DNA from: a virus
IMG/VR virus record: IMGVR_UViG_3300009155_000247
Span: 1-24,713 of that record
Direction: 5' to 3' (one strand)
DNA: 24,713 bases
This document shows positions 7,073-24,713 of this stretch, one piece after another. The notes beneath the pieces were generated by a model that was not told where the DNA came from, searched no databases, and was given only the letters and a program-made list of their open reading frames with translations. The stretch's first letter is position 1. Each line of letters starts with the position of its first letter. A program made the translations under genes and the position numbers.

Positions 7073-7083
7073 CGACGCACGCC

Positions 7084-7882: not shown

Positions 7883-7914
7883 AAAACCTCAATAGTCCAC
7901 ATAGGAGTAACAAA

Positions 7915-8106: not shown

Positions 8107-8204
8107 CCGCCCGATCCCAGCGGGCTGCAGAACTGCTGGCGTCTGCAATTCGCATACTAAAATCACCGCCAGCGCCTTTTTACTTAAGCTTTAGGAGTAT
8201 TGAA

Positions 8205-9002
8205 ATGGCAAAATTGAACCCTGAAAACCCCGCAGTCAAAAAGCGCGTAGGACGCCCCCCCAAACAAACCCGACCTACGGTACCTAATCCTGAAATCGCT
8301 GATAGTACCACCCAAGAAAATAGCTGCGGCAATGGCGGCTTTTCTATATTCAACCAGTCACCTATAAAGGACTCCTTCATGTCAGAAAAAGACTCTACCC
8401 CCAAGCGGGATATGGCAACCGTAAAAGCGCAAGCCGCTGCCCGCCGCGAAACGGCTGAACTCGCCAGGGCAGAACGCATTGCAGAACGCCAGCGCGTAAA
8501 AGATGCTCGTGACGCTGAAACAATCACCCGAAAACTTGCCCGCGCCGAAGCCTCTGCCCTTAAATCTCAGACCCGTGAGGCGGCCCGTCAAGCCGCGCTC
8601 GAAGCAGGAGGCAAGTACAGCGGCCCTATGCTCGGGTTGCGCGAAGCCAAAAAACGGTACGTGCGGGCTGCGAATGGCCGTCTACGTTCCACCGATCCGC
8701 TAGCAGAAGCGCTTGACGCCGTCGAACCCGACAGCGTGGTCTATATCGCCAAAACGGTTCTTGGGCTGGACAGCAGCCCCTATGCCCACCTGAACATGGG
8801 GCAGCAGTCGATGAACCTGCGCAACCGCGTGAGAACCGCCATCAAGTCAAGCGCCATCACTATCGAAGACGTGATCCGAGTTCGTGATGACAACGGACTA
8901 AAAATCTCGGAAGACATACTAGCGGCGCGCGAACAGCGTCGCGCTGCCGCTTCAGCCCGTAAAAGCGCTGCCGCTTCAGCCCGTAAAAGCGCTGCCGCTT
9001 AA
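8205..9002 (+). CDS. Basic protein with AT-hook-like motif, paralogue of the 7210 gene (265 aa)
   Basis: The ATG at 8205 follows TTTAGGAG by 7 nt; the frame is open further upstream but without a ribosome site. Residues 12-24 (KKRVGRPPKQTRP) resemble an AT-hook, a minor-groove binder of A/T-rich DNA. Residues about 70-125 are a highly charged Ala/Arg/Glu helix. Residues about 138-210 contain KYSGPMLGLREAKKRY and SPYAHLNMGQQSMNLRNRVRTA, shared with the 7210 product. The C-terminus is a repeated AAASARKS tail encoded by 24-bp repeats, similar in style to histone H1 or HU-like tails. DNA binding or nucleoid remodelling is inferred. A second in-frame ribosome site at 8366 may give a 207-residue form lacking the hook. 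Confidence 0.75.
   Translation: MAKLNPENPAVKKRVGRPPKQTRPTVPNPEIADSTTQENSCGNGGFSIFNQSPIKDSFMSEKDSTPKRDMATVKAQAAARRETAELARAERIAERQRVKDARDAETITRKLARAEASALKSQTREAARQAALEAGGKYSGPMLGLREAKKRYVRAANGRLRSTDPLAEALDAVEPDSVVYIAKTVLGLDSSPYAHLNMGQQSMNLRNRVRTAIKSSAITIEDVIRVRDDNGLKISEDILAAREQRRAAASARKSAAASARKSAAA
8366..8381 (+). promoter_or_regulatory. Internal in-frame ribosome site and start
   Basis: AAAGGA (8366-8371) stands 7 nt before an ATG at 8379 that is in frame with the 8205 gene. The short product would begin MSEKDSTPKRDM and start in the region corresponding to the N-terminus of the 7210 paralogue. Two products from one gene are plausible, with and without the AT-hook segment. Confidence 0.5.
8941..9000 (+). 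repeat. 24-bp in-frame tandem repeat, 2.5 copies
   Basis: Exact copies occupy 8941-8964 and 8965-8988, with a half copy at 8989-9000 ending at the stop codon. The unit encodes AAASARKS and builds the basic tail of the 8205 protein. Slippage could change the copy number between isolates. Confidence 0.9.
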
Positions 9003-9054: not shown

Positions 9055-9285
9055 TTGAAGCTCGATAAACACTGTATAGTCCCAATGTTTATCACTGGCA
9101 GCTGTATTAAAGCTTTGCCCGAGTTGAATGGGGCGATGATCAGTGTGAGTAAAGACCGTTTCGCCGACCTCACACTGAAGGATGTAAATATTCAAAAAAG
9201 CAGTTTACAGGGCGGAATTGAATGGACAGACTACTAGCCGCTACGCGGTGAAGCACCGAAAATCAACCCAAGGAAACAGAAATGA
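9055..9285 (+). pseudogene. Degenerate gene interrupted by an in-frame TAG
   Basis: The frame starts at TTG 9055 (or ATG 9085, without a ribosome site) and stops at TAG 9235-9237. Its last residues, SSLQGGIEWTDY, match SNLQHGIFWTDYW in the intact gene at 10288. After the TAG the same frame continues as PLRGEAPKINPRKQK to a TGA at 9283-9285, parallel to PENARVPRINP in the 10288 protein. That TGA would overlap the next ATG (9282) as ATGA. The 10288 protein has Trp at the position of the TAG, so TGG to TAG is the simplest change. It is probably a decayed fragment. Other genes here end in TAG, so a recoded codon is unlikely. Confidence 0.6.
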
Positions 9286-9289
9286 ATAG
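9237..9289 (+). repeat. 53-bp direct repeat, copy 1
   Basis: It is identical to 9765-9817, 528 bp downstream. It covers the tail of the broken gene, the AAGGAAAC ribosome site and the first codons (ATG AAT AG) of the pentapeptide gene. The two copies frame the pentapeptide cassette. Confidence 0.95.
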
Positions 9290-9779
9290 TCAAAATGTAC
9301 TGAAACCCGTCAAGCCCGTAATCAAACACTGTGCCACAGACAAAGTTTTATATGAGGGCGATCCGGGCATGACACTCCGGCGATTACTTGAAAAAGAAAT
9401 CGCCGTCAGCGCGAACCTAAGCGGCGTGGATCTGCGCGGCGTGGATCTGCGCGGCGCGGATTTAGGTGGCGCGAATCTGTACGGCGCGGGTTTAGGCGGC
9501 GCGAACCTGAGCGACGCGGATTTAGGCGGCGCGGGTTTAGGCGGCGCGGATCTGCGCGGCGCGGATCTAAGCGGCGCGAACTTGGTCGGCGCGTATTTAG
9601 GCGGCGCGAACCTGTGCTGCGTAAACCTGTATGGTGCGAATCTGCGAGGCGCGAACCTGGTCGGCGCGAACCTGGTCAACGCGAACCTGCAAAACGCAAA
9701 CCTGCGAAACGCGATCCTGCGAGGCGCGAACCTGGACGGCGCGAACCTGGACAGCGCGAACCTGGCCGCTACGCGGTGA
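9282..9779 (+). CDS. Pentapeptide repeat protein (165 aa)
   Basis: After about 43 N-terminal residues (including KHCATDKVLYEGDPGMTLRRLLEKE) the protein is a continuous A(D/N)LxG array of about 24 pentapeptides up to residue 160. This predicts a right-handed quadrilateral beta-helix. Members such as MfpA and Qnr mimic DNA and bind gyrase, but many pentapeptide proteins have unknown targets, so a role here is not proven. The ATG at 9282 is preceded by AAGGAAACAG inside the 53-bp repeat. The stop codon lies inside the second repeat copy, read in a different frame than in copy 1. The gene therefore looks like an inserted cassette that took both its start and stop from duplicated sequence. Confidence 0.88.
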   Translation: MNSQNVLKPVKPVIKHCATDKVLYEGDPGMTLRRLLEKEIAVSANLSGVDLRGVDLRGADLGGANLYGAGLGGANLSDADLGGAGLGGADLRGADLSGANLVGAYLGGANLCCVNLYGANLRGANLVGANLVNANLQNANLRNAILRGANLDGANLDSANLAATR

Positions 9780-10871: not shown

Positions 10872-11437
10872 ATGATATTTTTACCGAGAACATTAAGGTT
10901 TGGCTCAACCCATGGAAAAGCCCAAGCAACAGCGATCCGTGCGAATTAGAAGAGATAAAAAAGTTGATTGCCAAAGGCAGTACAAAACAAGCGTTAGAGC
11001 GACTGTCTTTTTCCAGTGTGGGAATGGACGCTGCAGGGTGGCACAAAGTCGGCACAGCTGTAATCACTGTTGCTCTTCATAGAGACAACGACGATGTGGA
11101 GCCCGAAGAGTTGAAGCACTCATGGGATGCCGCAGACCGTCTGGCCCATAAAATCGCTTATGATCATGCGAGATTCACAGTAGAAACCACAGCGGTAGAT
11201 ATCATGCACCTTACGCCCGATGATATCGGAGAAAAACCCATGCCGATGTTCAATATCAGCGGATTGGCCAAGGAAGTGTACTTAGACCCTGATTGGGTGC
11301 TTCGCAGGACACGTGAGCTAAAACGCGCTGTTGCGTACCTAGACGAAATAGGCCAGTTACGCCGCCCGTTGCACGGGCGTGACCATATTGTATGTTTCAT
11401 GCCCACACCGAAGTGGGCAGATGCGGGCGACGTATGA
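10868..11437 (+). CDS. Hypothetical protein upstream of the helicase (189 aa)
   Basis: The ATG at 10868 has GGAG 9 nt upstream; the TTG start at 10853 would not. The product is mainly helical, with KKLIAKGSTKQALERL near residues 35-50 and a His/Asp-rich middle (HSWDAADRLAHKIAYDHARF). The C-terminal part (YLDPDWVLRRTRELKRAVAYLDEIGQLRRP) looks like a winged-helix or recognition-helix type sequence. It overlaps the helicase start by 4 nt. A replication accessory or DNA-binding role is possible from context, but no family is recognised. Confidence 0.7.
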   Translation: MNDIFTENIKVWLNPWKSPSNSDPCELEEIKKLIAKGSTKQALERLSFSSVGMDAAGWHKVGTAVITVALHRDNDDVEPEELKHSWDAADRLAHKIAYDHARFTVETTAVDIMHLTPDDIGEKPMPMFNISGLAKEVYLDPDWVLRRTRELKRAVAYLDEIGQLRRPLHGRDHIVCFMPTPKWADAGDV

Positions 11438-13212
11438 ATAACGATATAGTCGTCACATACGATAGCAAAACCCGGCGGCTTATCGTATCTACGCCGTTTC
11501 ATCTGGGGGATGCCATGCGGGGGTTTCCTTCGCGCCGGTTCGACCCCAGAATCAAAGCGTGGCGCTTACCGCTCGTTAAGTCTAACATCATTCACTTAAA
11601 GAAAGCCGAAGAAATTTATGCGTTCAAATACCATCCCGAAGCTGTCGATGCGATTGCGAATTACGCAAAGATTATGGCCGCTCCTAAGACAGTCCCATTT
11701 CCGGTTAACGCATACGATTTTACGAGATCCGCAGCCGGTTTTCTTCCGATGGAGCATCAGATACGGATGCTTGGTTTATCGTGGAAAAAACCCGCTTCTG
11801 CATGGTTTGCAAAAATGGGCACAGGAAAAACGTTTACGGCTATCCATCTTGCGATGGCCTACTGGATGGCGGGCGAAATTGATGCAGTGGTCATCATCTG
11901 TCCGTCAACGCTTCGTCGTACGTGGGCCAAAGAATTCGCTAAATACGCCACCGAACCCTATGACTTCTATATCCACGAAACCAATGCCAAACCCTACCAG
12001 AGATTTTGCGAACTTCGACCGACCGACACCCTTCAGGCCCTCGCCGTATCGGTGGAGGGGCTCGGCATATCGACGAAATCTTACGATAGCGTCTGCGCCT
12101 TCTACGGCAGCGGGCGTCGAATATTCACAATATGTGATGAATCTTCACGAATAAAGAACCCGGATGCCAGAAGAACCCAACGAACCATCCAACTTGGATC
12201 GGCATCAAAATATCGGCTTATTCTTAATGGTACGCCGATCGCTTTAGGGATTCAAGACCTTTGGAGCCAATATGAGTTTTTAGACCCTAACATCATTGGC
12301 ATGGGGGATTATTGGGCATTTAAAACCCAATATATTGTGATGGGGGGGTATGAGAACAAGCAAATCGTTGGCGTGAAAAACGTCGAGGAGTTGATGAACA
12401 ATATCATCCCATACACGTGTGAAGTCGGTAAAGAGGTGCTAAACCTACCACCTAAGATTCCGATGGAGCGTATAGTTACGATAACCGCCGAACAGCGCCG
12501 TTTACTTCGTATCGTGGTCAGGGGGGCCGATGCAGACCCTAACGCCCCACATATAAAAGTGGACAATGTTCTTGAGAAGATATTGCGGTGCCGCCAAATT
12601 ATTGGTGGCTGGCTTCCTAAGAGTACGATCACATGGAAAGAGATTGATGGGGTGCCGGTTGAAGAGACGCACACCGAGCTTATTCCGCTCGCAGAAAATC
12701 CGAAGCTTGAAAGCCTGCTAGAAATCATCGAAGATAATTATGCTGGAAGCAAATTCATCATCTGGTCCAATTTCGTTCACGAAATTGAAGCTATCCAAAA
12801 CGCCCTGCGTGAAAAATACGGCGAGCACTCGGTAGAGTGTTATTACGGAAGCACAGAGATGGGGCGCCGATCTGAAATCGAAGACCGGTACTGTAACGAC
12901 TCTACACTACACTTTTTTGTCGGTAACCCGACTGCGGCTGGGCTTGGTCTTACTCTCATATCAGGCCAAAACGACGTCATGGTGTACTATAGTGGCACCA
13001 ACGCTTTTATTGATCGAGCACAATCGGAAGACCGAGCCCACCGCATCGGGCAGAAAAATTCTGTTGCGGTCGTGGACATAATTGCGGAAGGGACAGTAGA
13101 CGAGATTATCGTGGCCTCGATTCGTGAAAAGACGGATGTTGAGACGTACGTTTACAGCCGAATAAAGGCGGGCATCAAGCTCGACGACATGCTGATGGGG
13201 GCTGGTGCGTGA
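11434..13212 (+). CDS. SNF2-family (SF2) helicase/ATPase (592 aa)
   Basis: This is an ATP-dependent DNA translocase, likely used in replication, recombination or remodelling at forks. The N-terminal part (about 15-47) resembles a HARP-like segment (GFPSRRFDPRIKAWRLPL). RecA lobe 1 has Walker A MGTGKT (128-133), the DEAH-box variant DESS (235-238) and LNGTP (264-268). Lobe 2 has FIIWSNF (about 441-447), GLGLTLISG and the SNF2 signature RAHRIGQ (534-540). The ATG at 11434 overlaps the preceding stop (ATGA). The upstream frame from 11392 is only an extension into the neighbour. All helicase motifs appear intact. Such helicases often accompany VRR-NUC-type nucleases in phages; one follows at 18742. 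Confidence 0.92.
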   Translation: MNNDIVVTYDSKTRRLIVSTPFHLGDAMRGFPSRRFDPRIKAWRLPLVKSNIIHLKKAEEIYAFKYHPEAVDAIANYAKIMAAPKTVPFPVNAYDFTRSAAGFLPMEHQIRMLGLSWKKPASAWFAKMGTGKTFTAIHLAMAYWMAGEIDAVVIICPSTLRRTWAKEFAKYATEPYDFYIHETNAKPYQRFCELRPTDTLQALAVSVEGLGISTKSYDSVCAFYGSGRRIFTICDESSRIKNPDARRTQRTIQLGSASKYRLILNGTPIALGIQDLWSQYEFLDPNIIGMGDYWAFKTQYIVMGGYENKQIVGVKNVEELMNNIIPYTCEVGKEVLNLPPKIPMERIVTITAEQRRLLRIVVRGADADPNAPHIKVDNVLEKILRCRQIIGGWLPKSTITWKEIDGVPVEETHTELIPLAENPKLESLLEIIEDNYAGSKFIIWSNFVHEIEAIQNALREKYGEHSVECYYGSTEMGRRSEIEDRYCNDSTLHFFVGNPTAAGLGLTLISGQNDVMVYYSGTNAFIDRAQSEDRAHRIGQKNSVAVVDIIAEGTVDEIIVASIREKTDVETYVYSRIKAGIKLDDMLMGAGA

Positions 13213-13222
13213 CCCCGTGCTG

Positions 13223-13231
13223 TGGTATACT
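13223..13231 (+). promoter_or_regulatory. Extended -10 promoter (TGGTATACT)
   Basis: TGG followed by TATACT (13226-13231) forms an extended -10; no convincing -35 is present. The start would be near 13238, about 24 nt before the ATG at 13262. It has the same type as the element before terS. Confidence 0.5.
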
Positions 13232-13261
13232 AGAGATTTAGAGATAGTTGATAGGGTAAAA

Positions 13262-13633
13262 ATGTCAATAGTATACATCATTAAAGAACAGATGGTTCGC
13301 AACGACATAGGCACGTCCCCCATGGATTACAGCGCGGCCATGGAGTACGGCGATATTGAGTTTATCACTTCTCATGACATGCCGATTTACAGTCGTTCGC
13401 TAGTTCAAGCGGCATGGAGCCGTGATGTCATGGGGTTCGTGAATAAATACGACCCAGAGTGTGATTTCATCGTTACTACTGGCCAGCCAATCGCCATATT
13501 TGCAGTAGGGTGGATGCTTGGTCGCTCGAATAAAATCCCCCGTTTTCTCGTATGGCGGCGCGAGGAAAACCGGTATCGTCCTGTTAATTTTGACGGTTCG
13601 ATGCCTGCCGATATGGTCGCTGGTTTTAAATAG
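13262..13633 (+). CDS. Conserved phage hypothetical protein (123 aa)
   Basis: The ATG at 13262 has an AGGG element about 7 nt upstream and lies behind the extended -10. The GTG start at 13205 would overlap the helicase end and the promoter. The product contains IIKEQMVRNDIGTSPMDYSAAMEYGDIEFIT and GQPIAIFAVGWMLG, then RFLVWRREENRYRPV. I associate these strings with an uncharacterised family found in replication regions of other phages. It is a compact alpha/beta protein without a catalytic signature, membrane segment or zinc site. The function is unknown. Confidence 0.75.
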   Translation: MSIVYIIKEQMVRNDIGTSPMDYSAAMEYGDIEFITSHDMPIYSRSLVQAAWSRDVMGFVNKYDPECDFIVTTGQPIAIFAVGWMLGRSNKIPRFLVWRREENRYRPVNFDGSMPADMVAGFK

Positions 13634-13642
13634 GATATCGAA

Positions 13643-14044
13643 ATGGACATGCAAGATTTGCGGGCGTTATGTACCCGAATGAAACTTCTGCAAGAGCAGA
13701 AAGAAAAAGCCGAAGAAGCATTATCTGCACTCAATGCAGATTACAATGATCTTCGGCTATATAAAATCCCTGAAATGATGGAAGCGTTAGGGCTTAAGAA
13801 TGCTACTTTCGAGGGCATGGGGCGCGTTCAGCTTGCCTCTGACCTCTATGCTTCTACTCGTACGGGGCAAAAAGAGGCCGCGATGACTTGGCTCAGGGAT
13901 TGCGGATATGCGGATATGATCACAGAGACATACAACGCAAGTAGCATCAAAGGGCTGTTTCGCCGCATGATCGCCGAAGGTACTGAAATCCCTGAGGAGA
14001 TTTTTAATGTCTCTCCGTTTGTTCGTGCTAGCATCGTTAATTAG
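13643..14044 (+). CDS. Conserved phage protein with coiled-coil N-terminus (133 aa)
   Basis: Residues 1-35 form a probable coiled coil (LCTRMKLLQEQKEKAEEALSALNADY). This is followed by KIPEMMEALGL, GMGRVQLASDLYAS and WLRDCGYADMI. The ending has the pattern SIKGLFRRMIAEG...FNVSPF.RASI, which recurs in phage replication-region proteins of unknown role. TAGGATA lies about 10 nt before the ATG. A terminator-like hairpin follows 10 nt after the stop. It may be a structural or scaffolding partner of replication proteins, but there is no direct evidence. Confidence 0.75.
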   Translation: MDMQDLRALCTRMKLLQEQKEKAEEALSALNADYNDLRLYKIPEMMEALGLKNATFEGMGRVQLASDLYASTRTGQKEAAMTWLRDCGYADMITETYNASSIKGLFRRMIAEGTEIPEEIFNVSPFVRASIVN

Positions 14045-14053
14045 TTCCTCCAC

Positions 14054-14092
14054 CCCTGCTATCCTGTATTAGGGCGCAGCAGCAGGGTTTTT
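14054..14092 (+). terminator. Intrinsic terminator, moderate
   Basis: CCCTGCT (14054-14060) pairs with AGCAGGG (14081-14087), followed directly by TTTTT (14088-14092). The 20-nt loop makes it a moderate terminator. It separates the 13643 gene from the next one (14115) and may only reduce read-through. Confidence 0.55.
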
Positions 14093-14114
14093 AACCGCCC
14101 GCAAAGGAAATGAA

Positions 14115-14873
14115 ATGGCCACAGCTAAAAAAGGTAACGAAGTTGCAGTAGAAAAATCTGGCGCGCTCCTGTTTGCACAGGAAAGCCCGGAGTACATCAA
14201 GAAAGGTGCGGGCCGTGGGTCTGAAGAAGTCACCACCACCGACATGGTATTGCCACGGCTAGAGATAGTGCAAGCTCTATCTCCCATCAAGGAGGTAGAC
14301 CCTGGTGTTAAAGATGGTCAACTGTTTAATAGTGTGACCCAAGAAATCATCGGCGATTTCTGTTACTTTGTGCCGGTATACTACCGCATGGAGTACCTCG
14401 TATGGAAGGACGCTGATCAGGGCGGTGGCTTTTTCGGGTCACATGCCACTGAGGCGGACGCTCAGGCTCGTGTGTCCCAAGAGGTTCAAGGCGGTGAAAA
14501 CCCCGATCATCTTGAGATCGTGGACACCCCAGTCCAATACGGGTTGCGTATCTTAGAGGACGGCTCCTATGAGCAGATCGTGATATCTATGGCTAAAACA
14601 AAGGCCAAAGTGTCGCGCAAGTGGAACGCTATGATCAGTATTGCTGGCGGCGATAGGTTCTCTCGTGTATACAAAATCAGCACGTTCCGCGACGAAAACA
14701 AGAAGGGACAAAAGTTCCATAACTACGTAGTCCAGCCTGCAGGGTTCACACCGAAAGATGTATATGAAGCGGCAGAAGTCGCGTACAATATATTCAAGTC
14801 TCAAGAGTTTCGCGTTGCCCACGAGACGGTCAGTACCGCAGATACAGGCACGACTGATCGCGGCGATATTTAA
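14115..14873 (+). CDS. Conserved phage replication-region protein (252 aa)
   Basis: The ATG at 14115 has AAAGGAAA upstream. Residues 40-75 (TTTDMVLPRLEIVQALSPIK) and 90-110 (GDFCYFVPVYYRMEYLVW) are strong hydrophobic strands. These are followed by a GGGFFGSH loop, ISMAKTKAKVSRKWN (about 160-172) and an aromatic VVQPAGFTPKDVYEAA segment. The pattern occurs in a broad group of phage proteins next to polymerases. A single-stranded DNA binding or recombination role is possible from position and the basic/aromatic middle, but I cannot confirm a fold. The acidic, flexible tail (STADTGTTDRGDI) resembles SSB-type tails. It is followed by a strong double terminator. Confidence 0.75.
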   Translation: MATAKKGNEVAVEKSGALLFAQESPEYIKKGAGRGSEEVTTTDMVLPRLEIVQALSPIKEVDPGVKDGQLFNSVTQEIIGDFCYFVPVYYRMEYLVWKDADQGGGFFGSHATEADAQARVSQEVQGGENPDHLEIVDTPVQYGLRILEDGSYEQIVISMAKTKAKVSRKWNAMISIAGGDRFSRVYKISTFRDENKKGQKFHNYVVQPAGFTPKDVYEAAEVAYNIFKSQEFRVAHETVSTADTGTTDRGDI

Positions 14874-14885
14874 CGCTTTCTCCTT

Positions 14886-14948
14886 CCCCGGTATGCTTTT
14901 TGGTTGCCGCCGGGGTTTACCCCCACCTTTCGGGGTGGGGGGTTTTTA
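14886..14948 (+). terminator. Double intrinsic terminator before dpoZ
   Basis: The first hairpin pairs CCCCGG (14886-14891) with CCGGGG (14910-14915). The second pairs CCCCCACC (14920-14927) with GGTGGGGG (14934-14941) around a 6-nt loop and is followed by GTTTTTA (14942-14948). The second is a typical strong intrinsic terminator. It lies only 12 nt before the dpoZ start codon, so the replication operon must use read-through, antitermination or a promoter overlapping this site. Confidence 0.85.
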
Positions 14949-14960
14949 TAGCTTAATAGA

Positions 14961-16790
14961 ATGACATTTCCCAATCTTTCGGCAGTTCGCGTTATCGGGT
15001 TAGACTATGAGACCACTGGTCTTAAGTATTGGGACCCAGATTTCCGTGTTTTAGGTGTCGGTATCGCAACAATGGATTCCCGTTGGTATTTCGATCTGCG
15101 CAGCACGCCAGGATTGATAGACTGGCTTCAAAGCACGCTGAAAGATAAGCGCGTTGCAGCGCAAAACGCGCAGTATGATTACCAGTGTACCCGTGTTCTC
15201 GGGATTGATCCTCGTGATTCCAAGTGGTGGTGTACAATGGTAAATGAATGCCTTATCGATGAGCACCAGCTAAAATATGACCTTGCTTCGATCGCTGACT
15301 ATCACATGATTGAGTCCCAAAAATCCGCACTGCTGGAGCAGATACGCATCGAGATGGGGTACGCGGACGCACGAGAGGTACTGCGGCGGGCTGCTGAGAT
15401 TCCGGCGGCCATACTAGCCCCGTACGGCGCATCAGATGCTTTCGATGCCATTCGGATATACGACAAACAGGTTTGCGAGATTGAACGTCAAGACCTACAC
15501 GCTGTATCAGAGCTTGAGGCGCGCCTGTTGCCCGTTTTGGCCGACATGTCTTGGGGGGGAGTTCGGGTTGACTTAGAAGCCGCGCATACCGCGATCCCTC
15601 GACTTGATGAGCGAGAGCAAATCCTACAAAGAGAAATTAACGATATCACAGGAACCAAGTTTAACGTTAATTCATCACCACAGGTGCGAGCGTTTTTTAA
15701 TCCGAAGCCTATCAATAAGTTTCAGTGGCGCCTTATCGACGGAACTATTGTCGGCCCCACGAAAACCGGCGGGGGTCCTTCGCTCGACCAGAGTGCCATG
15801 CGTGAAATTAAGCATCCATTGGCCGCGAAAATATTGGCACTACGGAAGACGATCAAGCTTCGTGATACTTTTGTTCGCGGTCACATCCTCGGTAGCGCAG
15901 ACGCTGATGGGTATGTCCACACCCAGTTCAATCAAACACGCAATGACGCGGACGCGGGGACTGTTACCGGGCGACTTTCATCCACCGACCCGGCTCTTCA
16001 ACAGATTCCAAAGCGCGACAGAGAAAACGCCGCAGTATTGCGCGCCATGTTCCTCCCCGATCGTGGTGACGAGTGGTTTTGTGCAGATTACAGTCAAGTA
16101 GATTTTCGCTGCGGGGCACATTTGCAAAATGACCCATCCATCATCGCCGCGTATATTGAAAACCCCGGACTCGATTATCACCAAGTCGTCAGTGATATGA
16201 CGGGCATTCCTCGAAACCCACCTTACGCAGGGGCACCTAATACTAAACAAGTAAATTTAGGGTTGTCGTTCGGGGCGGGACAAGGCAAATTGGCATTCAT
16301 GATGGGGATGCCTTATAGCGTCAAAGAGTACAAGGGTAAAATGACATATGTAGCTGGGCCAGAGGCTGTGGCGGTGTTCGAAATGTACCATAAACGATTA
16401 CCTGCCGTAAAAAGCTTCATGAAAAAAGCTGAGAGTATAGCTAGGGAGACTGGATTTGTTAAAACTCAAATAGGGCGGCGGCTTCGTTTTCCCCGGGGAG
16501 TGGGAACGCATAAAGCAGCAGGATTACTTTACCAGGCATATGCAGCGGATCTCCACAAGCAAGGATTGATCAATACTGACGCTGCGATTCGCGAGGGGAA
16601 ACTTCCGGCCCGTCTAATGGTCAGTGTTCACGACGAGATCGGCGTGTCTATGGCTCGCGATGAGGAAGTCAAGGCTCGCATCATGCATGAATACACAGAT
16701 TTCAATTCGGATTTTTCCCCCATCCGAATGAGAGTGCCAATCACCGCGTCTGGTGAGTATGGTATCAATTGGTGGGAAGCCAGTAAGTAG
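14961..16790 (+). CDS. dpoZ: Family A DNA polymerase of Z-genome type, DpoZ (609 aa)
   Basis: It replicates the phage genome with 2-aminoadenine in place of adenine. The 3'-5' exonuclease shows Exo I D15/E17 (GLDYETTG), Exo II NAQYD73 and Exo III YGASD159. The polymerase shows TGRLSS (336-341), motif A DYSQVDF (D376), motif B K429...F437G and motif C HDE (557-559). Motif A has Asp at 381 where most family A enzymes have Glu, and the Arg usually four residues before the motif B Lys appears to be Ala. The assignment as DpoZ rests on these motifs plus the adjacent purZ, mazZ and datZ. The ATG at 14961 lacks a visible Shine-Dalgarno, but an in-frame stop 10 nt upstream excludes an earlier start. 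Confidence 0.9.
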   Translation: MTFPNLSAVRVIGLDYETTGLKYWDPDFRVLGVGIATMDSRWYFDLRSTPGLIDWLQSTLKDKRVAAQNAQYDYQCTRVLGIDPRDSKWWCTMVNECLIDEHQLKYDLASIADYHMIESQKSALLEQIRIEMGYADAREVLRRAAEIPAAILAPYGASDAFDAIRIYDKQVCEIERQDLHAVSELEARLLPVLADMSWGGVRVDLEAAHTAIPRLDEREQILQREINDITGTKFNVNSSPQVRAFFNPKPINKFQWRLIDGTIVGPTKTGGGPSLDQSAMREIKHPLAAKILALRKTIKLRDTFVRGHILGSADADGYVHTQFNQTRNDADAGTVTGRLSSTDPALQQIPKRDRENAAVLRAMFLPDRGDEWFCADYSQVDFRCGAHLQNDPSIIAAYIENPGLDYHQVVSDMTGIPRNPPYAGAPNTKQVNLGLSFGAGQGKLAFMMGMPYSVKEYKGKMTYVAGPEAVAVFEMYHKRLPAVKSFMKKAESIARETGFVKTQIGRRLRFPRGVGTHKAAGLLYQAYAADLHKQGLINTDAAIREGKLPARLMVSVHDEIGVSMARDEEVKARIMHEYTDFNSDFSPIRMRVPITASGEYGINWWEASK

Positions 16791-16798
16791 GAGCAATC

Positions 16799-17863
16799 AT
16801 GCCACATCAAATTGATATGGTCATGGATTTCCAGTTCGGTAGCACCGGCAAGGGGTCCATTTGTGGGTATTTAGCGAAACGGGAAAAATATGACGTCGCG
16901 GTTTGTGCTTTTGCGACTAACGCCGGGCACACTTATATCGATAAACAACGCGGAATCCATGTGATGACGCAACAGTTACCAACTGCGCTTACTTCACCTA
17001 CTGTTCACACTTTGATGATCGGGCCAGGTGCAGCCATCCACATTGAAACACTTCGCGATGAATTACACCGGTACAGCAGTATCATCGGCGATAAGCGGAT
17101 CATGATCCACCCCCACGCCGCCGTGGTTGAAGACTACCACGCTACTTATGAATTAGTAGATGGACGAACTAAAATGGGATCAACAGCTAAAGGAGTGGGT
17201 GAGGCCTACATCGAGCGCATGCGCCGCAGTACGGGGGACAGCAACATAATCCAAAACCGAGTTAGTTACTCAGACCCGATTGCCGCCTATATCACTACCC
17301 CTGAAAAGTACCGAGATGCGTTGTATGCCGCCAATGCTGTGCTGATTGAGGGGGCACAAGGATTCGGACTATCGATGTACCATGGGTTTTACCCGTACGT
17401 TACTTCGCGGGATGTTACTCCATGGCAAGTTGCAGCCGATTGTGGGATTCCTTTTCAATGGGCGCCGTACATCATGCCGATCGGGACGCTGCGCACGTTT
17501 CCTATTCGTGTCAGTAACCGGGATGGTTCATCGGGACCCGGATATTGCGATCAGCGTGAAATGAAATGGGAGGAATTAGGGATAGAGCCGGAATTAACCA
17601 CCGTGACTAAGCTTCCACGCCGGATTTTCACATTTAGTCAGGATCAGCTTACTCAGGCCCATTTCCATTGCGGTGGATATTGGCGCACTCGTCTATTTTT
17701 AAATTTCGCCAATTATGTCAACACTAGAAGAGAGCTTCGGACGTTAATCGAAGAAATCGAACGACACCAACATCTCAGGCTTAACCCCCCCAAAGTTGAA
17801 TGGATCGGGTACGGTCCTGATGACAGAGATGTCATAACCCGTGCTGAATGGGAGAAAGCATGA
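16799..17863 (+). CDS. purZ: PurZ, N6-succino-2-amino-2'-deoxyadenylate synthase (354 aa)
   Basis: PurZ joins aspartate to dGMP using ATP or dATP. The host PurB and kinases then yield dZTP. It is a PurA homologue. The P-loop reads QFGSTGKG (12-19) instead of PurA's QWGDEGKG, so the catalytic Asp is Ser15, a change known in the PurZ group. The NAGHT motif with the general acid His44 is kept (41-45), as are GSTAKGVGEAY (127-137) and EGAQG (184-188) followed by HGFYPYVTS (195-203). It is shorter than bacterial PurA (about 430), as usual for phage PurZ. GTAGGAG lies just before the ATG. The stop overlaps mazZ by 4 nt. The identification is strong from motif and neighbours. Confidence 0.93.
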   Translation: MPHQIDMVMDFQFGSTGKGSICGYLAKREKYDVAVCAFATNAGHTYIDKQRGIHVMTQQLPTALTSPTVHTLMIGPGAAIHIETLRDELHRYSSIIGDKRIMIHPHAAVVEDYHATYELVDGRTKMGSTAKGVGEAYIERMRRSTGDSNIIQNRVSYSDPIAAYITTPEKYRDALYAANAVLIEGAQGFGLSMYHGFYPYVTSRDVTPWQVAADCGIPFQWAPYIMPIGTLRTFPIRVSNRDGSSGPGYCDQREMKWEELGIEPELTTVTKLPRRIFTFSQDQLTQAHFHCGGYWRTRLFLNFANYVNTRRELRTLIEEIERHQHLRLNPPKVEWIGYGPDDRDVITRAEWEKA

Positions 17864-18195
17864 AAGACGCGCATGACACGGTAACTCTTGAAATGGATAT
17901 AGGGTGGACTATAGACCACCTTGCCGCCTATGTGTTTCAATGGGCATCTTCCGTTTTCCCCGATCGCACGGACAGCAGTATGTTCATCAAGATTTTTGAA
18001 GAATTGGCTGAAGTGATTCGCTCTGATGGTGACGCTTTGGAAGTTGCAGATCTGTTTATCATGCTGCTTGACTACGCCAAACGTAAAAACATCAACATCG
18101 AAGAAGCGGTACGCCACAAATTAAGCATTAATAGGGACCGCAATTGGCGAATTAACGCTAACGGCACGATGAGTCACTATAACTCGGAGAAATAA
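17860..18195 (+). CDS. mazZ: MazZ-like MazG pyrophosphohydrolase (111 aa)
   Basis: In Z phages this all-helical enzyme converts dGTP (and possibly dATP) to the monophosphate, supplying dGMP to PurZ. The MazG metal-binding residues are E47/E48 and E51 in FEELAE, and E61 and D64 in EVADLF. The length fits the short phage MazG group. The ATG at 17860 overlaps the purZ stop (ATGA) and has GGAGAA upstream; the ATG at 17848 would be inside purZ. The placement between purZ and datZ supports the Z pathway. Without this context it would be called a generic MazG-like NTP pyrophosphatase, so substrate specificity is inferred. Confidence 0.85.
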   Translation: MKDAHDTVTLEMDIGWTIDHLAAYVFQWASSVFPDRTDSSMFIKIFEELAEVIRSDGDALEVADLFIMLLDYAKRKNINIEEAVRHKLSINRDRNWRINANGTMSHYNSEK

Positions 18196-18196
18196 C

Positions 18197-18745
18197 ATGA
18201 CACACCCATTCTATGTGAACCCCAACGGAGATCTTCACATCGAAGCTATCGTTCGGGCGCAGGCTGTGAAGCGTTGGCATATGATCGATACTACTCGGAT
18301 GCAATCGGTCGCGGAGCATTCAGCGAATGTGGCCATGCTAATGTATTATATCAGCCATCACGCTCCGCAGGCGTATTTTGGTTCCCCAGCGGGCGCGGCG
18401 CTTTCTGGATTGCTGCACGACATATCTGAGGCATTCACCGGGGATATCCCCGGACATACGAAGCGCGAGCTGCAAGGGATCGACGAGCTGGAGTCTCGTC
18501 TGACACCCCCCACATTAACTTATAAAGTTTCTGATTCGGTAGGTTTGCTCATGAAACTGTGTGATTTAGCCGACGGAGTGCGGTTCATCTCGGCCCATGG
18601 GGTTGGCACGGATGCTGGCTGGGCTCGTGATTGTTTGATTAAGAAATTAAATGACAAGAAAGCCCAAGCTACAGCAGAATGGCCTCAAGTGGTATATAAC
18701 AGTGTGGTCGCTAAGATAGATAATTACATATGGGGCTCGGCATGA
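18197..18745 (+). CDS. datZ: DatZ-like HD-domain dATP triphosphohydrolase (182 aa)
   Basis: DatZ removes dATP, as deoxyadenosine plus triphosphate, so that the polymerase meets Z instead of A. HD-domain residues are visible as H41 (VAEHSANV), H74 and D75 (LLHDISEAF), and D123 or D126 (LCDLADG). An RW pair at 26-27 is also conserved in the related YfbR nucleotidases. The length matches known DatZ and YfbR proteins. The gene begins 1 nt after mazZ and overlaps the next gene by 4 nt. YfbR-type 5'-nucleotidase activity is the alternative, but the purZ/mazZ/dpoZ neighbours favour DatZ. Confidence 0.87.
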   Translation: MTHPFYVNPNGDLHIEAIVRAQAVKRWHMIDTTRMQSVAEHSANVAMLMYYISHHAPQAYFGSPAGAALSGLLHDISEAFTGDIPGHTKRELQGIDELESRLTPPTLTYKVSDSVGLLMKLCDLADGVRFISAHGVGTDAGWARDCLIKKLNDKKAQATAEWPQVVYNSVVAKIDNYIWGSA

Positions 18746-19185
18746 ATAAATTAGAGTTAGAATTTCGCAGGGAGTTGGTCGAAAAAATGGGAGGGACATG
18801 GACCCCTACGATTCATGTGGAGAATCGTCTGAACCCGGGAGTTCCCGATATGTCGTACGTGATGACCCATTTAGGGTGTGAAACAGGGTGGCTTGAGTTA
18901 AAGGCTTACAGACTAGCGAGCGATAAGAGGGTGTCGATCAAGGTAGAACGTGGGCAACATGAGTGGATGGCAGCGCACGCTTACCGGGTTCCGGCGCATT
19001 TTTTGATTTCAATAGGAGAGTGGTGTTATTTGCTGCATGGGCGGCACCACCGTAGGTTAGCCGAAACACTTCGCCTTGAAAATGATTTTGTGCCCCTCGC
19101 TATGTCTATGTTTCATCGCAGTGATATTCGGGCGACACTGCCCGCAGCACTAATAGCTAACACTAATAGGAGGCGCAATGACTAA
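18742..19185 (+). CDS. PD-(D/E)xK endonuclease, VRR-NUC or resolvase-like (147 aa)
   Basis: The nuclease core is compact: E27, then PGVPD36, then LELK with E52 and K54, and a downstream Q/H helix (GQHEWMAAH). This matches the PD-(D/E)xK fold as in VRR-NUC and Holliday-junction-resolvase-like phage nucleases. It probably cuts branched or flap DNA arising in replication. The ATG at 18742 overlaps the datZ stop. Its last codons overlap the primase-helicase start by 8 nt. It is interesting in a Z genome because cleavage must act on Z-containing DNA. Exact specificity is unknown. Confidence 0.85.
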   Translation: MNKLELEFRRELVEKMGGTWTPTIHVENRLNPGVPDMSYVMTHLGCETGWLELKAYRLASDKRVSIKVERGQHEWMAAHAYRVPAHFLISIGEWCYLLHGRHHRRLAETLRLENDFVPLAMSMFHRSDIRATLPAALIANTNRRRND

Positions 19186-21733
19186 GTTTGACCCGTATAA
19201 AGGGGCAAAGCCAGTTACAGAGATCAAGGCCGTACTCGATCTGATCCATGACCCTGGTGAGGTGTTTGAAATCCGCATCCCTAAAACCAAAGCGGGGACT
19301 ATCAGCGGGTATTTTGATGATACGGGTAAGGCGGCAATATATGTCGCCAATAACTCCGGTAGACACCCCGCCATCTATGCCACAGTTAATCCAGTTCAGC
19401 CAGAGTTATTGGCGCGGATGGAGAACAAGTTAGCCATATCCCAAGTTACAACGACAGATGCCGAGATTATCCGCCGCCGCTGGTTTTTGTTGGACTTCGA
19501 CCCAATCCGCCCGCCCGGGATTTCATCGACCGATGCTGAAATGGCTGAGGCAAAAAGTCGCGCTGAGCAAGTAGAAGAGTGGTTATCTAGCATTGGGTGG
19601 CCCGCCCCCATCCATGCGAGCTCTGGTAATGGCTGGCATTTGATGTATCGGGTGGATCAACCAAATGATGATTTAACGCGAGTCAATTTTGAATTCGCGA
19701 CTAAGATGTTATCATCTATTTTTACTGACCAAAAGGTATCGATAGATGTGGCGGTTTTCAATGCGTCTCGTGTGTGGAAAGTGTACGGCACTTTAAGCAT
19801 GAAAGGGTCTTCGACTGAAGAGCGCCCACACCGTGTCGCCCATTTAGTAAAAGTCCCGGATGAGCGAGGTATTGTAACTGGCGATCAGATTGATAATGTG
19901 GCCCGCCCCCTGCGGGATGCCAAATCTGAAGAATTTAAAGACATGACCGGCGAATTTATCGCGGACATGGTTAAGTGGTTATCCGATCGCGGGCAGACTG
20001 TAATCAGCGGCCCCCGTCCAATGTTCGGCAACGAGGGCCAAAAATGGATCATATCGAAATGTCCATTCGACGCAAACCACGGATCACCGATGGTGGGGCT
20101 CGTGAACAACCGCCCTGTATACCGGTGTTTGCACAACTCATGCTCGCCGTACCGATGGAAAGAATACCGAGAAAAAATCGACCCGACATATAAAGACCCT
20201 GACACAGTATTCATGCGTTTAAAAGAATGGTGCCATGGAGAAGCCGAAAATGTCGATTTAGAGTTATTGCAATCTGCCGGGCAGCTAGGCAAAAAATTAC
20301 CCGGCGTTTTAAAAAAGTTAGCTAAAGAGGCCCCCCGCGCCCGCGTAGCACTTCTAGAACAAGAGGTCAAAGCATCTCGCCGCCAATTCATAAGGGAAAC
20401 AGTCGGCGAGAACAGTGAGAGGGGCAACATCGTCGGATTGATTAACCGTACTCGGGTCATGCAAGAAGATGGCGGGGTCCCGATGTATTGGATCGCTGAT
20501 TATGATCACCGGATTCGGGTCGGACCAGTGGGGGATGTAGAATGCTCTCGTGCCACTGATGCGGATGAGATCGCATTAATGGTGAAGTTTCACAGTGCGG
20601 GTGATTCTTGGGTTAAACAAACGCACACATCCCAAATCATCAAACATCTAGCAGAAGAATACCGGGTGAACCCGCTTAAAGTATTTCTAAAGAAAAAACG
20701 CTGGGACGGCACAAAACGCTTAGACACTTGGCTTCCCCATTACATGGGCACCAAAGATGACGAGTATACGCGGGCGATCGGACGAAAATGGATGATAAGT
20801 GCTGTGGCACGGGCCATGGAGCCTGGGTGCCAAGCCGACCACATGTTGATTTTTGAGGGCAAACAGGGCGTAGGTAAATCCCGCGCCGCTCGAATTCTTG
20901 GCGGCCAATTTTATGTTGAATACTCTGGCGGCGTTACCGGTTACTCTGCCGAAAGAGATCTGGTAGCGACAATCGTCGGTAAAATGGTGATCGAAATGTC
21001 AGAGTTGGCCACGATGCGCCGTGCCGATGTTGAATCGCTCAAATCTATGTTGACCAAGTGCACGGACGACGTACGACTTAGCTATGAACGAGACTCGAAG
21101 CCATACCCTCGGACCTGTGTATTTATCGGTACGACCAATGAAACTAAAGGGTCTTACATCGCTGATGAAAGCGGCGCGCGGCGTTTCTGGCCTTGCGTGG
21201 TAGGCGAATTCGGACCTGTACGCACTGACCTGTTATCCCAAGACGTGGATCAGTTATGGGCTGAAGCCACAGAAGCGTTCATGGATGGCGAAAATTGGTA
21301 TGACGTACCAATTTTCGCCACGCTCAAGGAACAATCCGATCGGCAGATGCTGCTTGAAGACTCTGACCCATGGTACATTCGTGTTAGAAACGCTTTAACT
21401 GACCCGGACAGCTATAGTGAAGTGTTCCATACCCATGATGAGTACCATAATGGTCAAAGTACTGGCCAATTTGTGGTCCGGGCAGGACCGATCAATACGA
21501 TTTTAGGGATCACTTTAGGTATAGATACATCACGGCAGACGACTCTTGATTCGAATCGGGTAAGAAAGATTCTGATGAGTATAGGGTTCAAGAAAGTCCG
21601 CCCTAGTAAAGGGTGGATGGGATCAACATACGCCTATGATCTTCCCCGTGAAGCACAGCCACACCTGTGGCCTGCCATCATCGCGGCCAAGGGCGCGGTA
21701 AAGTTTCCGAAATACGATTCCGAGAAAAATTGA
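19178..21733 (+). CDS. PrimPol/SF3 helicase fusion, VirE-like (851 aa)
   Basis: The N-terminal archaeo-eukaryotic primase domain shows D106/D108 (LLDFDP), SGNGWH (149-154) and D190 (VSIDVAV), the full catalytic set. A zinc-type cluster follows: C295, H301, C317 and C322. The C-terminal VirE/DUF5906-like helicase has Walker A GKQGVGKS (561-568), Walker B VIEMSE (604-609), sensor TTNE (652-655) and Arg residues in GARRFWP (668-669). It should make primers and unwind the template, replacing separate primase and helicase. GGAGG precedes the ATG. The gene ends at TGA inside TGATCA, whose other strand is the holin stop. All motifs look intact. Confidence 0.92.
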   Translation: MTKFDPYKGAKPVTEIKAVLDLIHDPGEVFEIRIPKTKAGTISGYFDDTGKAAIYVANNSGRHPAIYATVNPVQPELLARMENKLAISQVTTTDAEIIRRRWFLLDFDPIRPPGISSTDAEMAEAKSRAEQVEEWLSSIGWPAPIHASSGNGWHLMYRVDQPNDDLTRVNFEFATKMLSSIFTDQKVSIDVAVFNASRVWKVYGTLSMKGSSTEERPHRVAHLVKVPDERGIVTGDQIDNVARPLRDAKSEEFKDMTGEFIADMVKWLSDRGQTVISGPRPMFGNEGQKWIISKCPFDANHGSPMVGLVNNRPVYRCLHNSCSPYRWKEYREKIDPTYKDPDTVFMRLKEWCHGEAENVDLELLQSAGQLGKKLPGVLKKLAKEAPRARVALLEQEVKASRRQFIRETVGENSERGNIVGLINRTRVMQEDGGVPMYWIADYDHRIRVGPVGDVECSRATDADEIALMVKFHSAGDSWVKQTHTSQIIKHLAEEYRVNPLKVFLKKKRWDGTKRLDTWLPHYMGTKDDEYTRAIGRKWMISAVARAMEPGCQADHMLIFEGKQGVGKSRAARILGGQFYVEYSGGVTGYSAERDLVATIVGKMVIEMSELATMRRADVESLKSMLTKCTDDVRLSYERDSKPYPRTCVFIGTTNETKGSYIADESGARRFWPCVVGEFGPVRTDLLSQDVDQLWAEATEAFMDGENWYDVPIFATLKEQSDRQMLLEDSDPWYIRVRNALTDPDSYSEVFHTHDEYHNGQSTGQFVVRAGPINTILGITLGIDTSRQTTLDSNRVRKILMSIGFKKVRPSKGWMGSTYAYDLPREAQPHLWPAIIAAKGAVKFPKYDSEKN

Positions 21734-22547: not shown

Positions 22548-24713
22548 TTATTCAGCCAAAGTATTCTGGTTATTGCGATTGGCGTCTACCATAGCGTTTT
22601 TACCCGCTAAACTGGTTGAAGTAGCTAGCGACGTCTTCGACAATCCCCATTTACTGGGGTCAGACGCCCAGCTAGCGACTTTGCGCCGGTGTTCTGGAGG
22701 GAGGTTTTTAAGTAGATCTTCAAGGCCTTTTGCAGTTCGAGACGCTTTGGCGATTTCTAACATAGTTTCGCGACCAAGTTTTCTTTCAGCGGCTTCGATC
22801 GCTTCATTGATCGCGATAGTTTTATACCCAAGAGCCCAAGGCAAACGAAATTTTGAGGTGTTGGCCTCAAGTAATTCCAACAGTGCGGTCCGGCCTTGAC
22901 TAGCCTCTTCTGCGGATTTGGCACCGCGTTCAATAGTTGTAGCCTGCTTTTTTAACACGGCCATCGTTTCTTCCGCTAACTCTTGCCCGATATCATAGTT
23001 ACCTTTACCGAGAAATTTTTCGACCGTACCTACAGACTCGCCTTTGACCAATTTTACGAAATCTTCTGGAGATTCTTTAAACAAGCGTTGCGCTTCGCCG
23101 GTTAATTTGGTTTTGGCAATTTCTTGCGCTGATTCACTGTATTTGGCCAAATATCGTTTATAACCTTCACCCCCCGCTTCCTCAATGGCGTCTATGATTA
23201 CTGGTTTAATTTTTGACATGACCAGCGTCGTGGCTTGTTTTTGAGCAGTGGGATCACCTTTATGTAGGCTGTTGATCGCGGCGTTGACCGAATTTTTACG
23301 GATAGCGTCAAGAGCGCGGGCATCGATCGCACCTGTACTTGTTACCCATGTTTTGATATCAGCAGATAAGCGCTTTACTGCCGCCCTCATATCCGCATTG
23401 CCCGCTAACTCGGGATCTCTAAGGATGTTTTCAACGTTAGCGATTAACGACTCTGATTTCAATGGTGCGGCGCCAGTGTGTGAGGATTTTGCAGTCCTAT
23501 TAGCGAGTTTAACTGATTCAGACGCTTTTGTACCGGGAAAAACGACAGTCGCATAGTCCATTGCTTTAGTGCCATAACCTATATCACCCAAAACAGCATG
23601 GTCGTACCCCTTCGATCGAAGAGATTCAACTAACTGTTTCACTGGCCCGTCCCCGTGAATCTCAGAATCGAATATTGATGCCGGGGTCCCAGCGTTCGGG
23701 TCAATGCCGAACCGTTGAGCTTCTTTCTCAATTACATCCTGTGGTGCTTTATTAACTAACTGGGCTTCAAATTCAGATAATTTAGCCCCTTTGATCCCTC
23801 GTCCTGCCGCCGCTTTAGCGTAACTATTAGCAAAAGTTTTGTCCCACGACAGATATAGAGGGCGTGTTAACTCACCGCCGGTATATGACCCCCCGTGGTA
23901 ATATAATGCATTGGCTTCCTGGCCGGCGTTGATTTGACCCATGTTGGCCTGAAATAACGCGTTATTTTTGACCGGCTCTAGAGCGGCGCGCGCTTCCTTT
24001 TTGGCGGCTTCAGTCGCGGCCCGGGCTTCTGTCGCTGTGACCCCGCCGGACAATTGTACTAAAGCATTTGCCCCACTCTCTGTTTGAGCGGCAGTCACAC
24101 CAGGGACCTTACCGCCAAAATAATGCGGGTCGTAAGTCATGGCTCGTTTAACAAGTGCTTGTGCGGTCGGATTGCGAGAACCAGCCAACGCTTGGGCGCC
24201 TGTTAACCCTTCTGGCGCAGTCCGTAACGCGTTCAAAGCGTCTTCCATATGGCCTTCAACCGATTGAGCAGCCAATTTAGCGGCTTTCGCACGGGGGCGA
24301 TCGCGCCACCATTTGACACCGCCAGCGATCGCCCCCCCCAGCGCTTGTCCACCTGCTTCCCACGCTGCACCTTCTGCGATGTTCTTCAATGGCTCAGTGA
24401 CATTCTCCATGCCTTGCCGAGATTGCTTCCACCCCATTGCAGTATCCAGATATTCTAGCATTTCTTTCGAGATTCCGTATCCTAGCCCTGCACCCCCGAC
24501 GGCCCCAGCGACGGCTCCTGGGGGGCCTCCGAGCAGCGCTCCACTGCTCGCCCCTACTACCCCGCCGCCCACACTTCCGAGCATTTCGATCGTAGGCCCC
24601 ACGACATTTCGGATTTGGCGCCCAATAGACACTTCTGACTGATGGGGGATGGCCTTTCCTTTGAGATACGCATCTGGGTCAAACGCAGTTGATGTAGAGG
24701 TTTTCCCTTTGAG
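22548..24713 (-). CDS. Internal ejection-type virion protein with ART-like domain, N-terminus beyond window
   Basis: The reverse frame is open from the right edge to 22548 (at least 721 residues). A GTG at 24632 is only an internal codon, because 27 further sense codons precede it (LKGKTSTSTAFDPDAYLKGK and onward). Near visible residues 45-80 lies a Gly/Ala-rich hydrophobic glycine-zipper stretch that could insert in membrane. At about 270-394 (23530-23906) an ADP-ribosyltransferase-like domain is suggested by ALYYHGGSY, LYLSWDKTFANSYA, then KGYDHAVLG and YATVVFPG, similar to ART domains of polyvalent phage proteins. The rest is helical. The location before the lysis genes suggests an internal or ejected protein. 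ART activity is not shown. Confidence 0.65.
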   Translation of the reverse strand, partial: LKGKTSTSTAFDPDAYLKGKAIPHQSEVSIGRQIRNVVGPTIEMLGSVGGGVVGASSGALLGGPPGAVAGAVGGAGLGYGISKEMLEYLDTAMGWKQSRQGMENVTEPLKNIAEGAAWEAGGQALGGAIAGGVKWWRDRPRAKAAKLAAQSVEGHMEDALNALRTAPEGLTGAQALAGSRNPTAQALVKRAMTYDPHYFGGKVPGVTAAQTESGANALVQLSGGVTATEARAATEAAKKEARAALEPVKNNALFQANMGQINAGQEANALYYHGGSYTGGELTRPLYLSWDKTFANSYAKAAAGRGIKGAKLSEFEAQLVNKAPQDVIEKEAQRFGIDPNAGTPASIFDSEIHGDGPVKQLVESLRSKGYDHAVLGDIGYGTKAMDYATVVFPGTKASESVKLANRTAKSSHTGAAPLKSESLIANVENILRDPELAGNADMRAAVKRLSADIKTWVTSTGAIDARALDAIRKNSVNAAINSLHKGDPTAQKQATTLVMSKIKPVIIDAIEEAGGEGYKRYLAKYSESAQEIAKTKLTGEAQRLFKESPEDFVKLVKGESVGTVEKFLGKGNYDIGQELAEETMAVLKKQATTIERGAKSAEEASQGRTALLELLEANTSKFRLPWALGYKTIAINEAIEAAERKLGRETMLEIAKASRTAKGLEDLLKNLPPEHRRKVASWASDPSKWGLSKTSLATSTSLAGKNAMVDANRNNQNTLAE

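Follow-up and report, generated by a model that had tools for sequence, protein, structure and literature searches.

The exchange of adenine for 2-aminoadenine (Z) has been linked to restriction resistance in phages (PMC8599892, PMC8515928). In cyanophage S-2L, the gene triad purZ-mazZ-datZ is reported to introduce Z into bacterial DNA (PMC8342488), and this phage is described as lacking DpoZ and relying on an unselective PrimPol (PMC8065100, PMC8342488). For phiVC8, the selectivity of the DNA polymerase DpoZ is documented (PMC8599892), with host enzymes finishing the synthesis of dZTP (PMC8342488). Here we describe a dpoZ-purZ-mazZ-datZ locus in IMG/VR record IMGVR_UViG_3300009155_000247, a linear fragment of an uncultured tailed phage; "the window" denotes the whole stretch of 24,713 nucleotides (nt) analysed. 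We hold it to be very probable that the window stems from an uncultured podophage with a P22-type portal which makes and replicates ZTGC-DNA, i.e. DNA with Z in the place of adenine. By analogy with the studied phages, the prediction we favour is that Z replaces most or all of the adenine. The gene set itself is of a known kind, but it marks a phage group that is not yet described, and its gene order, residues, kinship and conservation in 21 relatives are reported below.

The Z gene module

The initial annotation had read the locus as a complete Z-genome module of four genes lying head to tail on one strand, with overlaps or near-zero gaps, each gene keeping its catalytic motifs. The list of open reading frames (ORFs) contains four open frames on the plus strand between 14961 and 18745, preceded by a hairpin (protein lengths in amino acids, aa; enzyme activities as predicted from homologues):

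14920-14941, plus strand: terminator-like hairpin of 9 pairs followed by a T run, from a consensus scan only, between the gp34-like gene and dpoZ
14961-16790, plus strand: dpoZ, 609 aa, family A DNA polymerase with 3'-5' exonuclease, phiVC8-like DpoZ-2 type
16799-17863, plus strand: purZ, 354 aa, succino-2-amino-deoxyadenylate synthase
17860-18195, plus strand: mazZ (MazZ-1 / DUF550), (d)GTP diphosphohydrolase; first ATG at 17848 (115 aa), second ATG at 17860 preferred
18197-18745, plus strand: datZ, 182 aa, HD-domain dATP triphosphohydrolase

According to the ORF ends, gaps of 8 nt and 1 nt separate dpoZ from purZ and mazZ from datZ, respectively. The overlap of purZ and mazZ amounts to 16 nt with the first ATG and to 4 nt (ATGA) with the second, which has GGGAG upstream. 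The layout is thus as claimed, and purZ, mazZ and datZ stand together with mazZ in the middle, as in other Z clusters. Perhaps the hairpin separates the Z genes from the replication genes upstream. A promoter scan was uninformative, since its 14 matches were fewer than the 16.6 expected. Diagnostic residues are present in all four proteins, with departures in DatZ and at position S583 of DpoZ, and profiles, residues and trees uphold the reading as a complete module wherever it can be tested by sequence.

For PurZ, the best solved structures were 6tnh (1.8e-71) and 7odx, the enzymes of phiVC8 and S-2L, respectively, and PHROG_1211 was matched at 7.3e-71. In place of Asp13 and Glu14 of E. coli PurA, the protein has Ser15-Thr16, and it carries the TTVT loop. 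A quick IQ-TREE analysis of 97 rows placed it inside PurZ, in a 22-row clade with a support of 100 in the Shimodaira-Hasegawa-like approximate likelihood ratio test (SH-aLRT). The PurZ side was split from PurZ0 at SH-aLRT 98, with PurA further out at 100, the tree containing two PurA-side rows only. A position inside bacterial PurA, which the initial annotation had named as refuting its reading, was therefore not found: the window protein groups with phage PurZ, apart from both PurZ0 and PurA.

DpoZ reached 832.8 bits (1.6e-250) against the NCBI DpoZ model NF038380, well above its cut-off of 500, and the best solved structure was 7pbk (2.1e-95), the DpoZ of phiVC8 (PMC8599892). Of the signature residues listed in the same article, R440, L455, F459 and G548 (phiVC8 numbering) are kept together with the helix-O insertion, and S583 is replaced by Glu, as in four of nine named DpoZ. 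The exonuclease acids D15, E17, D73 and D159 are invariant in alignment A5. A first DpoZ tree was discarded, as it contained polymerases of DSL-LC05 and ctNMl277 that had branch lengths of 10 and were not recognisable as family A. Rebuilt without these two and without the OH phage polymerase, the tree united the window and 21 IMG/VR loci in a clade with support 99, comprising the same 22 rows as the PurZ clade.

MazZ belongs to the S-2L-like MazZ-1 type, with matches to Pfam PF04447 (7.7e-7) and to the structure 7ody of S-2L MazZ (8.8e-16). The S-2L metal ligands E35, E38, E50 and D53, the guanine-side residues I56 and D60, and R83 (roles as given in PMC8342488) are all kept in the window protein. 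In the alignment, numbered from 17860, E48, E51, E61 and D64 are invariant and R94 is nearly so, and I67 and D71 are as in S-2L. DatZ matched PHROG_7076 (2.6e-20) and the structure 6zpa of S-2L DatZ (1.1e-9). In alignment A4 (13 sequences), R26, H41, H74, D75, K89, K120 and D123 are invariant and W27 is nearly so; the HD metal ligands and the counterparts of R19, K81 and K116 of S-2L are kept. The latter three residues are described for S-2L DatZ in PMC8065100.

Activities, base content of the virion and benefit are extrapolated from the studied homologues. MazZ would cut (d)GTP to dGMP, which PurZ would join with aspartate to succino-2-amino-dAMP, and host enzymes would complete dZTP. DatZ would strip dATP to deoxyadenosine, and DpoZ, aided by its exonuclease, would favour dZTP over dATP opposite T. 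The remaining replication machine would consist of a PrimPol-VapE protein, an SNF2 helicase, Pam3-like proteins and a VRR-NUC nuclease. Resistance to host restriction enzymes is the likely benefit.

A PurZ clade without a named member

The clade formed by the window and the 21 IMG/VR loci contains no named phage. Identities to the window are about 57-70% for PurZ, 58-72% for DpoZ and 36-53% for DatZ. PurZ matches were obtained in 206 phage records, all of them below 60% identity, and a search with the block at the DNA level gave no match. When IMG/VR was scanned with the single PurZ sequence, there was no match either; a profile scan detected 397 relatives, and 79 loci were retained from these.

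Gene order is well conserved: dpoZ, purZ and mazZ are colinear in all 21 loci, datZ in 20, and the genes for the VRR-NUC nuclease and the PrimPol-VapE protein in 19. The losses fall at locus ends; one of these loci comes from record G001, in which the missing genes, including datZ, are situated at the far end. The primase-helicase was matched in only 2 of the 58 other PurZ loci, there upstream of the SNF2 gene. The order DatZ, VRR-NUC, PrimPol-VapE hence marks the clade. In some loci the best-match span is interrupted by a stop (PurZ in L019 and L064, MazZ in L022 and, outside the clade, PurZ in L072 and L090), although the L019 record has a PurZ ORF of 348 aa nonetheless. A limited, non-exhaustive literature search found no description of this clade. 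With at least 21 further IMG/VR contigs carrying the colinear block and none of the 206 phage records at 60% or more, it represents a sizeable group of probable Z phages without an isolate in the phage collection, whereas the module itself adds another complete example of a known chemistry.

PurZ-like genes were also seen in metagenome-assembled genomes (MAGs) of bacteria. In UBA6503 (L209:9968-11011, on a 994-kb contig) and OFTM141 (L207:9971-11008), such a gene has the motif GSTGKG with Ser for Asp13. In UBA6503 it is flanked by genes encoding cytidylate kinase and Ham1/ribosomal protein S1-like S1 domains, and in OFTM141 it is surrounded by like-sized ORFs. In both it is the sole PF00709 gene found per genome of 1.6-1.8 Mb, the MAGs being possibly incomplete, and there was no DpoZ, MazZ or DatZ match within 10 kb. 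The gene encodes either a cellular adenylosuccinate synthetase with Ser or a cellular PurZ. An 11.8-kb contig binned as Candidatus Gottesmanbacteria (L232:332-9900) carries PurZ, DatZ and an SNF2 helicase, together with a DpoZ that is divergent (26%) and a primase resembling that of phiVC8 (25%); it is possibly a Z phage of a Patescibacteria host, or else a binning error. In a Deltaproteobacteria MAG (L206:9276-14238), a PurZ-like gene is situated between a gp32-like single-stranded DNA-binding protein and an intein-bearing ribonucleotide reductase, with no other Z genes matched within 10 kb and an ordinary PurA on another contig of the MAG.

Packaging genes and mosaic context

To the left of the replication block, two packaging genes are encoded on the minus strand:

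1237-3405, minus strand: P22-type portal protein (PF16510, 3.1e-171)
3407-4933, minus strand: terminase large subunit (TerL) of the DSL-LC05 type (PHROG_5902, 1.9e-49; PHROG_2, 2.2e-46)

Identities of the terminase are 73.9% to the DSL-LC05 protein (OR003940) and 66.5% to that of ctNMl277; neither phage has a purZ, dpoZ, mazZ or datZ match. purZ was found in none of 83 records (80 from IMG/VR with terminases 73-81% identical, plus three named), of which 13 are at least 35 kb long and the others may be fragments. The window-type terminase, in turn, was found in 0 of 50 PurZ-bearing records, these being the searched part of the 79 PurZ loci; in a separate comparison that serves as control, the terminase query matched 85 loci of the non-Z set and none of the Z sets. 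Two Z-clade records, G009 and G019, carry another TerL (PHROG_979). The gene at the right end (22548-24632) was matched in 5 of 16 non-Z records and in 0 of 21 Z-clade records. The block 11392-21733 had matches in 25-29 Z-clade loci, a count that includes overlapping stretches of some records twice, and in no non-Z locus; an SNF2 match of 22-23% was seen in G052, G064, G103 and DSL-LC05.

The portal protein is shared by both sides, with identities of 72-77% to the Z-clade records G009, G018 and G019 and of 70-76% to ten non-Z phages, and the small terminase likewise has relatives in both groups. In a 70-row portal tree the approximately unbiased (AU) test gave p 0.0013. Since short contigs in that tree cannot be labelled as ordinary-DNA with certainty, another was built with 14 portals of near-complete records, the portal of the window among them. 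Three second copies were omitted, as were G060 (371 aa) and G114 (41% identity). Here the four Z portals came together in 0% of 200 bootstrap trees, and a single clade of them was rejected (AU p 0.0057). The Z portal rows are few and were picked after the resemblance of their portals to those of non-Z phages had been seen; label shuffles show neither clustering nor its lack, so that the AU tests and bootstraps alone are informative. Across the two sides, the portals of G019 and G064, the latter without a purZ match, are 84% identical.

A simple split of the window into a non-Z packaging half and a Z half from two genomes was ruled out, as several Z-clade phages carry the same portal. Given the distribution of the terminase and the position of the four Z portals among non-Z ones, phages of one P22-portal podophage lineage seem to have exchanged replication blocks of the Z type and the ordinary type. 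Most parsimoniously, the window comes from a Z-DNA podophage, and its ancestors swapped either replication blocks or the genes for portal and terminase with phages of ordinary DNA. That such swaps took place more than once in this lineage, with closely similar portal and packaging proteins serving two DNA chemistries and the window combining a Z block with a terminase otherwise seen here only in phages without purZ, we consider slightly more plausible than not. Several times, it appears, the Z gene set in this group came together with parts of phages of ordinary DNA. The general idea of gene sharing between Z and ordinary phages is already in print: five of seven Z-phage groups are described as having many genes in common with canonical-DNA phages of related hosts among NCBI genomes (PMC12884076). 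If the block exchange is true, it becomes testable whether terminase, portal and ejection proteins adapt to three-bonded Z:T DNA, because close pairs such as the two portals just mentioned exist on both sides.

Alternative explanations

Several points weigh against a Z-DNA podophage. The record is a linear 24.7-kb fragment, and both contig ends stop inside minus-strand late genes, so that, for a phage of DSL-LC05 size, about one third would probably be lacking. Ser at the place of the catalytic Asp was seen in the alignment in the window, in 79 of 79 IMG/VR rows, in 12 of 12 named PurZ and in 3 of 3 PurZ0 rows, but its conservation in the 79 loci is partly by construction, because one search pattern contained GSTGKG. 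PurZ scores 291.2 bits (8e-87) against NF038379 and thus stays below the curated cut-off of 300, which is exceeded by the proteins of S-2L, phiVC8 and Bm1 and even by the PurZ0 of DrRobert (366.4). As Pfam names Adenylsucc_synt only, the protein might be regarded as an ordinary adenylosuccinate synthetase that boosts AMP, its neighbours being general nucleotide-pool enzymes of an adenine phage. We consider this highly improbable in view of Ser for Asp13 and Thr for Glu14, the separation from the PurA side (SH-aLRT 100, albeit with two PurA-side rows only) and the presence of a DpoZ scoring 832.8 bits in this operon. Within the clade, two relatives have scores of 290.5 and 303.7; since the clade straddles the cut-off and the DrRobert PurZ0 lies far above it, the NF038379 threshold does not separate function here. 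It is an annotation rule and no defining trait of the enzyme. A further departure concerns the base/sugar pocket of DatZ, where W27 is kept at S-2L W20 but His87 stands at P79 and Met29 at I22, next to the base. These two base-contacting positions, together with the lower conservation of DatZ than of PurZ and DpoZ in the clade, would fit a partial substitution, with a working module whose altered DatZ pocket leaves dATP in the pool. This seems unlikely to us, as the DatZ of Bm1 also has His at P79, phiVC8 and 69E27.1 have Leu at I22, and the metal and phosphate ligands are invariant; moreover, of the phiVC8-clade signatures tested, DpoZ lacks only S583, a position that is variable in named DpoZ, and the polymerase would form an extra barrier to A.

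The mosaic context raises the question of an assembly chimera, in which a Z-clade segment was joined to the packaging genes of an unrelated ordinary-DNA phage, the module being real and its phage context not. This would explain why the terminase type is absent from the 50 searched Z records and purZ from the 83 records with or near that terminase, and why TerL and the right-end gene match the non-Z group only, whereas the replication block matches Z phages only. A chimera would need two joints, however, because the block has ordinary-type genes to its left and to its right, and relatives of the portal and of the small terminase occur in either group. The portals of the Z-clade records G009, G018 and G019 also fall among those of non-Z phages, so the mixing is not peculiar to the window contig, and the portal conflict is independent of any two-joint assembly error in the window record. 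We rate a chimera as marginally less likely still than partial substitution, and retain a Z-DNA podophage of mosaic descent as the preferred reading.

The remainder of the replication block

The genes surrounding the Z module are as follows:

11392-13212, plus strand: SNF2-type helicase (PF00176, 5.9e-22)
13205-13633, plus strand: Pam3 gp32-like protein (PF23992, 2.5e-14)
13643-14044, plus strand: Pam3 gp33-like protein (PF23984, 2.7e-30)
14115-14873, plus strand: Pam3 gp34-like protein (PF23977, 2.1e-59)
18742-19185 (first ATG 18730), plus strand: VRR-NUC-like PD-(D/E)XK nuclease (PHROG_2165, 7.8e-11)
19178-21733, plus strand: archaeo-eukaryotic primase (AEP)-type primase-polymerase fused to a VapE-like helicase of superfamily 3 (SF3) type (PF05272, 1.6e-64)

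The four upstream genes are colinear in the Z clade. Downstream, datZ overlaps the nuclease gene by 16 nt, or by 4 nt with the ATG at 18742, and the latter overlaps the primase-helicase gene by 8 nt. For the nuclease there was no Pfam match, no match in a single-sequence search of phage records and no convincing solved structure in a profile search. Its alignment with the nucleases of phiVC8, ZP6, Bm1, 69E27.1, BUCT555 and S-2L reached an hhalign probability of 98.0 (E 1.8e-13), and P32-G33-x-P35-D36 and E52-x-K54 are invariant in alignment A7. The primase-helicase gave a weak LigD_Prim-Pol match below the cut-off, a match to VapE (7pds) at 3.9e-44 with the clade profile, and an hhalign probability of 99.1 to the S-2L PrimPol across the helicase part.

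The initial annotation had singled out the linkage of such a nuclease and a PrimPol/SF3 helicase to the Z genes. Both genes are indeed present, but an unprecedented linkage can be ruled out, because a homologue of the nuclease follows datZ in phiVC8, ZP6 and Bm1, phiVC8 has a Prim-Pol/DUF5906 primase and S-2L a PrimPol with VapE-like helicase; what differs is the order.

Upstream of the block, a pentapeptide-repeat protein is encoded at 9282-9779 (PF00805, 3.2e-37). The neighbouring ORFs 7174-7857 and 8103-9002 have a common domain around 'KYSGPM..NPYAHLN.GQQSMNLRN'; they were each matched in 21 loci of the Z group and in 0 loci of the non-Z terminase group, without a Pfam match and with PHROG matches that are weak at most. 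The region 5001-9000 contains mostly short ORFs and has a GC content of 55-58% and an AT skew of 0.15-0.29, compared with 46-52% GC elsewhere.

Comparison with known systems

The uncultured podophage DSL-LC05 resembles the window in its terminase (74%), in its portal (76%) and in the gene that follows the latter (58%), but has no match to purZ, dpoZ, mazZ or datZ, and its polymerase shows a weak PolB-exonuclease match; its IMG/VR relative G064 has a polymerase of PHROG_1252. The Wayne-like PurZ0 actinophages, e.g. Arthrobacter phage DrRobert, also combine a PurZ-family synthetase with an adjacent family A polymerase. However, the GSTGKG of the window reads GSEAKG in PurZ0, the Wayne-like DpoZ is without L455 and G548, and in these phages (DrRobert) a dUTPase-like gene is present, with datZ and mazZ not annotated. 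Cyanophage S-2L shares with the window an unfused MazZ-1, the order PurZ-MazZ-DatZ and a PrimPol with VapE-like helicase, but encodes PrimPol and VRR-NUC on the other strand.

The podophages phiVC8 and ZP6, which have DpoZ, agree with the window in the SNF2 helicase, gp33/gp34-like genes, DpoZ, PurZ and DatZ, in the homologous VRR-NUC nuclease after datZ (found in Bm1 as well) and in a PrimPol/SF3 primase within the block; nuclease and primase of ZP6 have been described (PMC8515928). The proteins in common are 29-44% identical. In contrast to the window, both phages have MazZ-2, and their primase, of PrimPol plus SF3 type (DUF5906) in phiVC8, lies between dpoZ and purZ and belongs to another family (hhalign probability 4.3). 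The phages SH-Ab 15497 (Acinetobacter), PMBT28 (Salmonella) and PSA28 (Pseudomonas) differ in that their MazZ is fused to a longer N-terminal part and that the stretches compared gave no PrimPol-VapE match; in SH-Ab 15497 and PMBT28, a UvrD/PcrA-type helicase is annotated before dpoZ. Nevertheless, they carry DpoZ, PurZ, MazZ-1 and DatZ in the same order and on one strand as in the window, and among named phages they provide the closest DpoZ (38%) and PurZ (up to 43%).

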